DNA of 22,469 bases. It comes from a virus. Below, one piece after another: positions 120 through 1,220 of this stretch. The DNA lies in the IMG/VR virus record IMGVR_UViG_3300032213_001819, positions 1 to 22,469 of that record; one strand, given 5' to 3'. Under the pieces are notes generated by a model. It was not told the DNA's origin, made no database searches, and saw only the letters and a program-made list of their open reading frames with translations. Position numbers and translations under genes: made by a program. Numbering within the stretch: position 1 is the stretch's first letter; every line of letters begins with the position of its first letter.

Positions 120-497
120 ATGGAAGAGAATAGTAACAACCAAGAAGAGCCTGTGTGCCGACCTTGTTCAGAAAAGAGTAAGATTATAGAGGGGAACTTA
201 GTTGCCGGACAGATTAATTATAGTGTCAGGGACAAGGCAAAGAACCTCATTAGTGGCATAGGGGATATGTTGAAGGAGAACTATGTAAGTAATGAGGAGT
301 ATATGCGTAGGAAGGAAATATGTAGGCAGTGTCCTCACAGGCTTAATGTATTGACGAATAAGCACAATCCTGATAGGGTAAGTAAGGCGGACAAGTGTAT
401 GGCTTGTGATTGCTTTTTAATAGCGAAGGTAGGGAACCTTAGGGGCAAGTGTTGGTTGGTTAATCAGGATTGCCCTTTGGGGAAGTGGAAGGTTTAG
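120..497 (+). CDS. Cysteine-rich zinc-ribbon-like phage protein
   Basis: A 125-residue protein with nine cysteines in spaced pairs: C13/C16, C68/C71, C93/C96/C98 and C111/C118. The C-terminal half follows a layout I recall from small phage proteins: an ExCxxCPHR stretch, then a CxxCxC knuckle, then CPLGKW near the end. Structural zinc binding is the natural reading. The N-terminal 60 residues are polar and probably flexible, with a predicted helix around 36-52. The role is unknown. It has its own promoter and lies upstream of the packaging genes, separated from them by the opposite-strand endonuclease gene. The ATG at 120 is preferred because it begins 9 bases after the upstream stop and immediately after the -7 box; no Shine-Dalgarno sequence is present. 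Confidence 0.8.
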   Translation: MEENSNNQEEPVCRPCSEKSKIIEGNLVAGQINYSVRDKAKNLISGIGDMLKENYVSNEEYMRRKEICRQCPHRLNVLTNKHNPDRVSKADKCMACDCFLIAKVGNLRGKCWLVNQDCPLGKWKV

Positions 498-564
498 GGG
501 TGTTTTTTTTCAGGTGTTTTCATTTTATTGCTGTTAGTGATATTGACATTAAAGTTACACTGAA

Positions 565-1023
565 TTATATTTCATTTCCATTTCTTTTGAATTTCAGTCC
601 TCGTTCTTTTTGCTTTTCAGCAATTGATTTACCATTTGACTTCTTCTTTTTCTTCTTAATTTTTTTGTAAGGCGTGAACTTTTTTGAAACTATTGTGCAT
701 CCATTTTTGGATGTTGTCATTCTGGTTTTACCTTCAAGGTCAGGGAAAGCATAAGATTCTTTTTGAATATTGTAAATGTTTTCGTGCTTGTTTATGAGTT
801 TATACTCATACTTTTCTGCATCATCTTTAGTTGAGAAATGTTTTATGATTTCATACTTAAAAGCATCTTTGCCATACTTATTATAGTCCTTTTGAAGTTT
901 ATAGTTGTGGTGCTTTTTATTATGCAAATCCTCTTTATGAATCAAAATTCTGTATCCAAAACTATGTGTTGAACCAAAATAAACCGTTCCTGTGACTGTG
1001 TTTGTGATTTTGTAAACTACCAT
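565..1023 (-). CDS. Free-standing GIY-YIG homing-type endonuclease
   Basis: A 152-residue protein with the GIY-YIG nuclease fold at its N-terminus. VVY (2-4) and YFG (15-17) stand for the GIY and YIG signatures, followed by R25, H29, E73 (in KYEYK) and N85 (in YNI), which fit the usual catalytic positions. The C-terminal 60 residues are very basic, with a run of lysines around 120-128, and probably bind DNA. It is the only convincing minus-strand gene in the window and is AT-rich, consistent with a mobile endonuclease gene sitting between two phage transcription units. The ATG at 1021-1023 is chosen; the longer frame upstream has only TTG starts and would translate across a leader hairpin. 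Such enzymes cleave target DNA and spread by repair. Regulation of this copy may involve the leader hairpin at 1029-1062. Confidence 0.88.
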   Translation of the reverse strand: MVVYKITNTVTGTVYFGSTHSFGYRILIHKEDLHNKKHHNYKLQKDYNKYGKDAFKYEIIKHFSTKDDAEKYEYKLINKHENIYNIQKESYAFPDLEGKTRMTTSKNGCTIVSKKFTPYKKIKKKKKKSNGKSIAEKQKERGLKFKRNGNEI

Positions 1024-1028
1024 AAATG

Positions 1029-1062
1029 AAAAACCCTCAAGGGGTAGTGCGTCCTCAAGGGT
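1029..1062 (-). terminator. Terminator-like hairpin in the leader of the GIY-YIG gene (possible attenuator)
   Basis: In the minus-strand RNA, ACCCUUGAGG (1062-1053) pairs with CCUUGAGGGU (1042-1033) over 10 positions, including U-G and G-U wobbles in the middle. The loop is 10 bases (1052-1043) and the hairpin runs into a short U tract (1033-1029). The wobbles are true pairs only in the minus-strand RNA; read on the plus strand they become C-A mismatches and there is no U tract. This orients the element to the endonuclease gene, whose ATG begins 5 bases beyond the U tract. It could stop transcription before the gene or mask its translation start. Confidence 0.62.
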
Positions 1063-1121
1063 ATTCAATCGTCTTATGAGCAAAGACAAATTCTTCTGTT
1101 ACACATTGTTTACGCACTACC
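1043..1121 (-). promoter_or_regulatory. Perfect 10-bp inverted repeat pairing the hairpin loop with the upstream leader
   Basis: The plus strand carries GGTAGTGCGT at 1043-1052 and its exact reverse complement ACGCACTACC at 1112-1121. In the minus-strand leader RNA, the 5' element (1121-1112) begins about 9 bases after the predicted transcription start. The 3' element is exactly the 10-base loop of the terminator-like hairpin. Pairing of the two would compete with the hairpin, as an antiterminator does, or would form a loop-based pseudoknot. Confidence 0.6.
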
Positions 1122-1133
1122 GTAACAACGCAA

Positions 1134-1165
1134 CAAAGTTATTTTCTCCTTACGACAATTCCAAA
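1134..1165 (-). promoter_or_regulatory. Minus-strand promoter for the GIY-YIG gene
   Basis: Read on the minus strand, TTTG (1165-1162), 20 bases, then TAACTTTG (1141-1134) is a perfect Bacteroidota promoter. The predicted start is near 1130, giving a leader of about 107 bases before the ATG at 1023. It is back to back with the plus-strand promoter whose -33 element begins at 1178; only 12 bases separate the two -33 elements. Confidence 0.78.
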
Positions 1166-1170
1166 CAAAG

Positions 1171-1220
1171 GTTACATTTTGGGTAAAAATTTTTTTTTAG
1201 TTACCTTTGGTAAAAATTTG
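1171..1220 (+). repeat. Imperfect tandem repeat forming the packaging-operon promoter
   Basis: Copy one (1171-1192) and copy two (1200-1219) share GTTAC, a TTTG core, then TAAAAATTT, with one substitution and small gaps, at a period of about 29 bases. The TTTG in copy one is the -33 element and the TTTG in copy two lies in the -7 box. The two promoter elements therefore occupy equivalent places in the repeat. Confidence 0.6.
1178..1209 (+). promoter_or_regulatory. Promoter of the packaging operon
   Basis: TTTG at 1178-1181, 20 bases, then TACCTTTG at 1202-1209 match the Bacteroidota consensus exactly. Predicted start is near 1213, which excludes an in-frame ATG at 1179 as a start and supports the ATG at 1227 for the first gene. 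Confidence 0.8.

Follow-up and report, generated by a model that had tools for sequence, protein, structure and literature searches.

The short leader in front of a GIY-YIG endonuclease gene in this virus record raises the question of whether the leader acts as an RNA switch and, if so, what such a switch serves; an earlier note had proposed that it was built into the endonuclease gene itself. The window, by which we mean the whole stretch of DNA analysed, comprises the 22,469 bases of a virus record and encodes the GIY-YIG protein (PF01541, 1.2e-8), a portal protein (PHROG matches, with a P22-like portal just under the Pfam cut-off) and other structural genes. A large terminase subunit is tentatively assigned on the basis of its location and a weak similarity to an annotated terminase. 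For a 70-kb related record, many of the best primase-helicase relatives are in Flavobacterium and Cellulophaga phages, and the carriers of the leader are uncultured viruses, probably of Bacteroidetes. The features on which the argument turns are as follows.

1178-1209, plus strand: divergent promoter of the structural-gene operon, TTTG-N20-TACCTTTG
1134-1165, minus strand: Bacteroidetes-type promoter, with a -33 TTTG at 1165-1162, a 20-nt spacer and a -7 element TAACTTTG at 1141-1134
1104-1130, minus strand: P1, the 5' hairpin, whose loop and top (1121-1112, GGUAGUGCGU) form the 5' half of the kissing pair
1069-1089, minus strand: P2, the middle hairpin, variable in sequence and conserved in pairing
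1033-1062, minus strand: P3, a terminator-like hairpin of 10 bp whose 10-nt loop (1052-1043) pairs with 1121-1112
1024-1032, minus strand: U-rich tract after P3, UUUUCAUUU, followed by the AUG at 1023-1021
565-1023, minus strand: GIY-YIG endonuclease ORF of 152 aa (PF01541), the cargo of the window
483-544, no strand assigned: conserved far flank where similarity to the relative L034 resumes, 98% over 62 nt

The minus-strand promoter follows the Bacteroidetes consensus (PMC7366714). This pattern is complete at 10 of the 11 elements, against an expectation of 0.005 per 70 nt in these genomes, and in all seven versions at the TerL locus, the window included, it ends 3 nt upstream of P1. Additional viral hits of the promoter and P1 motif (L070, L072-L074, L076, L079) proved to be unrelated sequences. 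The plus-strand promoter at 1178-1209 is directed away from the leader, so that leader and structural operon are divergent; L048 carries a divergent promoter of the same type (TTTG-N19-TACCTTTG). Two relatives (L001 and L005) carry some 288 nt more than the window at ~1212-1219, and the inserted stretch adds a small plus-strand ORF, absent from the window, that separates the divergent promoter from the gene at 1227-1493.

Downstream of the promoter, the three hairpins are maintained in relatives through considerable sequence change. The P1 stem is retained despite indels in L030, L048, L034 and L053, and in L001, L030, L048 and L053 the P2 arms have new sequences that still pair, the arms occurring as GUCUU..AAGAC, GUCAU..AUGAC, UAUCGG..CCGGUA, UACUGG..CCAGUA and GUUC..GAAC; only in L001 does the minimum-energy fold lack P2, yet there too the arms are still complementary. 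P3 was present as the earlier note described it, with arms ACCCUUGAGG (1062-1053) and CCUUGAGGGU (1042-1033) around the loop ACGCACUACC (1052-1043) in the minus-strand RNA, and its two wobble pairs (U.G and G.U) are indeed standard on the minus strand only. Its G+C-rich stem stands directly before the U tract, as in an intrinsic terminator. All versions have P3 stems of at least 10 pairs and U-rich tails, the U-richness being preserved with altered sequence in L034, L048 and L053; the 10-nt loop is unusually long, which is why a standard terminator scan overlooks P3. When the 110-nt leader was compared with dinucleotide shuffles, it folded at -30.2 against -21.2 +/- 3.2 (z -2.8), and 2 of 200 shuffles did as well. 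The arrangement is that of an attenuator: promoter, folded RNA and U-tailed hairpin, with exchangeable cargo immediately downstream. A role on the plus strand is disfavoured by the wobble pairs and the promoter direction. A frame running through the hairpin from a TTG at 1089 is open in the window and L030, and we do not treat it as coding because L001 has an interrupting stop, read by eye, just upstream of the hairpin.

The most distinctive feature of the leader is the relationship between its two ends. The segment 1121-1112 (GGUAGUGCGU) is perfectly complementary to the entire P3 loop over 10 nt, a 10-bp match that base-shuffled loops reached in 2 of 20,000 trials. Since P1 carries the 5' element and P3 is a long-loop terminator, a kissing loop between P1 and P3 is the natural reading of the fold. 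The relatives first compared were seven near-identical GIY-YIG loci; across related phages more widely, the pairing is upheld in ten distinct versions of the leader. L001 and L005 carry GGUGGUGCGU/AUGCACCACC, which differs from the window by one double change and one G-C to G.U replacement, L006 carries the G.U intermediate GGUGGUGCGU/ACGCACUACC, and L030 carries GGUGGUGCGU/ACGCACCACC. In L047-L050 the pair is GGUAGUGCG/CGCACUACC, and in L034 and L053 the window's GGUAGUGCGU/ACGCACUACC is replaced completely by the unrelated allele GGCUUGAC/GUCAAGCC. Across 8 versions the kissing helix has no non-pairs, and each of positions 3-8 shows at least two pair types. Covariation in homologues, on which the earlier note had staked its proposal, is therefore seen in the loop pairing and also in the P3 stem, which covaries at several positions among distinct versions.

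Because the register for the covariation count was set by hand to the structure, the loop shuffles above and a test of allele assignment are fairer measures. Among four unrelated alleles, each P1 loop pairs best with its own P3 loop: the native assignment sums to 33 bp against 26 for the next best of 24 assignments. Independent changes are few, with about four unrelated loop alleles behind the ten distinct sequences. Of 63 terminator-like hairpins in the records from this group of phages, 14 had a loop complementary to upstream sequence over at least 7 nt, against 0.9 expected from swapping loops and upstream regions, with orthologous copies counted separately among the 14; a few of these matches are probably due to chance. 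The same control in other phages gave 3 of 59 hairpins against 2.1 expected. Copies were sought with our own motif scanner, which misses those with a mismatch in P1. Given that the P3 loop exceeds the usual length in terminators and has stayed complementary to P1, we take the loop pairing to matter. Its sequence may vary freely so long as the two loops match, and we found no aptamer-like conserved core in the leader.

What follows the leader differs between relatives. L034, whose terminase is identical to that of the window, has no GIY-YIG gene after the leader, and neither do L047-L050 and L053, whose terminase is about 82% identical. Instead, the leader in these relatives is followed by a non-coding stretch of some 400 nt, over which the two groups are 69% identical.

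L034 ~4805-4395, L048 ~5185-4785 and L053 ~5192-4800, minus strand: structured RNA of ~400 nt directly after P3 in relatives lacking the GIY-YIG gene

This candidate RNA includes the conserved segments ACUACAAAGGAG and CGAAAGGGCUCAACGGGGAG and has 12 doubly compensated pairs in three sequences, of which only two are really independent. L034 has no gene-like ORF on the RNA strand after the leader. We found no promoter pattern between P3 and the RNA, so that the RNA, if made, would require read-through of P3. It gave no Rfam match and no blastn hit among annotated phage sequences, an exact motif search of bacterial genomes returned nothing, and ARAGORN identified no tRNA or tmRNA in it; searched with the models of the large RNAs ROOL and GOLLD, L034 4200-5300 gave nothing at E up to 2 and L048 nothing at the gathering score. 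A PAPS-reductase-like gene lies 3' of the large RNA in L048. Similarity between window and L034 spans the leader and resumes at window 544-483, and since it is found on both sides, the GIY-YIG gene and the RNA share one slot. In L030 that slot holds a different GIY-YIG gene (48% identity over 116 aa). Comparison of these loci makes it clear that the leader is common to the relatives and the cargo is not, although the order in which the cargoes arrived cannot be told for certain. Other genes also vary nearby: L006 (3501-5126, against window ~500-526) has extra genes that separate the GIY-YIG gene from the one at window 120-497, and a DNA methylase (PF01555) is among the extra genes of relatives in this interval. 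In L010, L015, L017 and L022, distant relatives of the GIY-YIG gene start shortly after a terminator-like hairpin, which suggests that GIY-YIG genes often land just behind terminators.

A second locus came to light when we scanned larger related records for hairpins that resemble terminators and have a loop matching sequence upstream of them. One record (G001) has two tandem copies with the loop pairs GUGGAAG/CUUCCAC and GGUGAGAG/CUCUCACC, and two others (G002 and G006) have one copy each, with GUGGAAG/CUUCCAC. The promoter pattern lies upstream of three of these four copies. All stand before genes of replication type, which give weak Pfam matches resembling Rep3 and RepL and are followed by a primase-helicase, with P3 a short way upstream of the start codon and a AAGGAAAG-like site outside P3. 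L125 and L126 (G006 and G002) share 99% identity across the 713 nt that end at the start codon, which in L125 sits at the exchange edge (1677), and carry unrelated replication-type genes beyond it; this edge is of the same kind as that at the terminase locus. In L089 (15440-15780, plus strand) a tandem pair of kissing-loop elements with differing loop pairs lies before the replication operon. L094 (5472-5595), L096 (~12341) and L113 (~3256) have a two-way terminator with the loop UGUAAUUA and an upstream UAAUUAC, possibly a further member of the family or possibly a palindrome effect. Searches of the leader, the large RNA and the replication-locus copies against Rfam 15 returned sub-threshold matches only (RT-18, snoR110, PYLIS_1). 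Relatives with a TerL of 35-40% identity (L054-L067) have no such element near TerL, and the non-coding RNA found there is instead a permuted tmRNA. Among bacterial genome contigs we found no TerL.

L058 1460-1711 and L059 2187-2555, minus strand: permuted tmRNA upstream of the terminase region (RF04321, above the gathering score)

By blastn, L054, L056, L062 and L063 contain sequence similar to this tmRNA.

These observations lead us to propose, with about even confidence, that the minus-strand segment 1130-1024 belongs to a family of promoter-proximal RNA attenuators gating cassettes that can be exchanged, and that the endonuclease is a passenger. The aligned sequences document the promoter, the three hairpins, the covarying kiss, the recurrence at a second locus and the exchange of cargo; we infer that P3 terminates transcription, that the kiss affects termination, and the direction of that effect. 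A family member would comprise the promoter, the 5' hairpin P1, a small P2 and the long-loop intrinsic terminator P3. Transcription is predicted to start at P1; as the 5' arm and loop of P3 emerge, the loop would pair with the already folded loop of P1, and this kiss would delay P3 closure or put it under strain during the passage of polymerase over the U tract, setting the fraction of transcripts predicted to read through P3 into the cargo. The leader also forms the edge of a cassette, the DNA just after P3 having been swapped between phages, with two GIY-YIG genes, a large structured RNA and different replication genes as the cargoes. It probably limits how often the genes or RNAs downstream are transcribed, and endonuclease expression is probably kept low as a property inherited from the landing site.

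The energetics bear on how such a kiss could work. The earlier note saw the two pairings as competing or as forming a pseudoknot. The loop pairing itself stands, and the folding energies do not favour a strict exchange of terminator for antiterminator at rest, since complete pairing without P3 costs 2-9 kcal/mol relative to P1 plus P3 in 6 of 7 sequences, L001 being the exception in which the extended pairing is the minimum-energy form. We estimate that ten pairs could hardly coexist with a closed P3 and that six to eight could, as in known kissing hairpins, which would make a kissing loop compatible with P3 at rest. Because P1 plus P3 is favoured at rest, a leader working purely as an antiterminator could act only through kinetics, and we favour a kinetic effect in which capture of the nascent P3 loop by that of P1 would retard closure of the terminator; antitermination is thus favoured over stabilisation of P3 as the sign of the effect. 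A broader form of the proposal, which we advance tentatively, is that these are modular, orthogonal kissing-loop attenuators with private self-complementary loop pairs, serving as standard sockets for different genes or for a new class of structured RNA of ~400 nt, with recombination at the edge between terminator and start codon and loop alleles exchanged between lineages in the manner of incompatibility types.

Several other explanations can be set against an attenuator. The element might be an independent small RNA, roughly 100 nt long, that acts in trans, with P3 ending the RNA, read-through being incidental and the kiss representing either a tertiary fold or the pairing of two copies. Such a gene would need nothing beyond a promoter, a compact body of three hairpins and a terminator, private orthogonal loop pairs would suit self-recognition, and G001 has tandem copies. 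We nevertheless regard this as rather unlikely, as P3 is followed closely by a gene or structured RNA at each of the two loci, and a leader kept through the exchange of cargo is not something a free small RNA needs. Control of translation, with P3 and the kiss governing access of ribosomes to the nearby start codon, would have a precedent in the hairpins that block ribosome binding for I-TevI, segB and mobE of phage T4 (PMC2988022), and the AUG of the window is only 9 nt from the end of P3. Neither a Shine-Dalgarno sequence nor the start codon lies inside P3, however; the AAGGAAAG-like site at the replication locus is likewise outside it, a U-rich tract always follows P3, and the cargo of L034 is an RNA without an ORF, which leaves this account improbable.

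We give similarly little weight to the idea that P1-P3 is the 5' domain of one large ornate non-coding RNA, of which the leader of the window would be a remnant after the endonuclease destroyed it. The ~400-nt RNA with its 12 compensatory pairs does follow P3 directly, and kissing loops are a feature of ornate phage RNAs, ROOL and GOLLD among them (PMC12286853); yet at the replication locus the same three hairpins stand before protein genes without such an RNA, and the pairing is kept in the endonuclease-bearing L001, L006 and L030, so the leader is not decaying there. Chance, or a repeat acting at the DNA level as a protein or recombination site, is very improbable and already disfavoured: the leaders do sit exactly at exchange boundaries, but their loops change in concert with pairing intact, the G.U pairs are valid on the transcribed strand only, and the control that swapped loops and upstream regions argues against coincidence.

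If the leader is an attenuator, it resembles known systems in part. Attenuation in pT181 acts on a plasmid replication gene, and some copies here also precede replication genes; both have a 5' leader, a terminator and kissing loops. Attenuators of the pT181 type combine a sensing hairpin, an intrinsic terminator and a loop-loop kissing step, and exist as orthogonal loop variants (PMC4878617). In pT181, however, the kissing partner is an antisense RNA supplied in trans and the antiterminator covers the 5' arm of the terminator, whereas in the present leader it is the loop of the terminator itself, on the same molecule, that complements the P1 loop. In riboswitches with H-type pseudoknots and terminators, such as preQ1, a loop pairs with a distant single strand and controls termination; the leader differs from these in lacking a recognisable aptamer core. 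Conserved, covarying kissing loops are also found in the phage and bacterial RNAs ROOL, GOLLD and OLE (PMC12286853), which are much longer. In T4, hairpins or intrinsic terminators at the start of the GIY-YIG/HNH endonuclease genes I-TevI, segB, mobE and segF limit their expression (PMC2988022), mostly by masking the gene's own ribosome site in the case of the hairpins. The earlier note treated such regulation as unfamiliar for GIY-YIG genes in phages of this kind; with the T4 cases documented (I-TevI, mobE, segF), that part of its surprise is not new. Unlike the T4 hairpins, the present leader also occurs without an endonuclease, has a covarying loop-loop pairing and precedes other cargo. We found no description of a cis-acting kissing-loop terminator leader in phages in the open-access literature searched.

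The observation with which we began is thus confirmed, and its interpretation is partly supported. A switch ahead of the GIY-YIG gene gains from the structured minus-strand RNA, the promoter at the 5' element and a P3 that transcription from it cannot avoid, but a leader built for the endonuclease is not supported. Real and covarying, the leader is general to the phage group and independent of that gene, standing also before another GIY-YIG gene, the ~400-nt RNA and replication genes.

If the attenuator reading is true, several operons of these phages would be controlled by a small swappable RNA module in which the terminator's own loop is the partner of the sensor, a natural counterpart of engineered orthogonal RNA attenuators. 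A mobile endonuclease using this pre-existing gated site would have been quiet from its arrival. The ~400-nt RNA that occupies the same site in relatives would be an uncatalogued phage RNA, and one that is directly testable.
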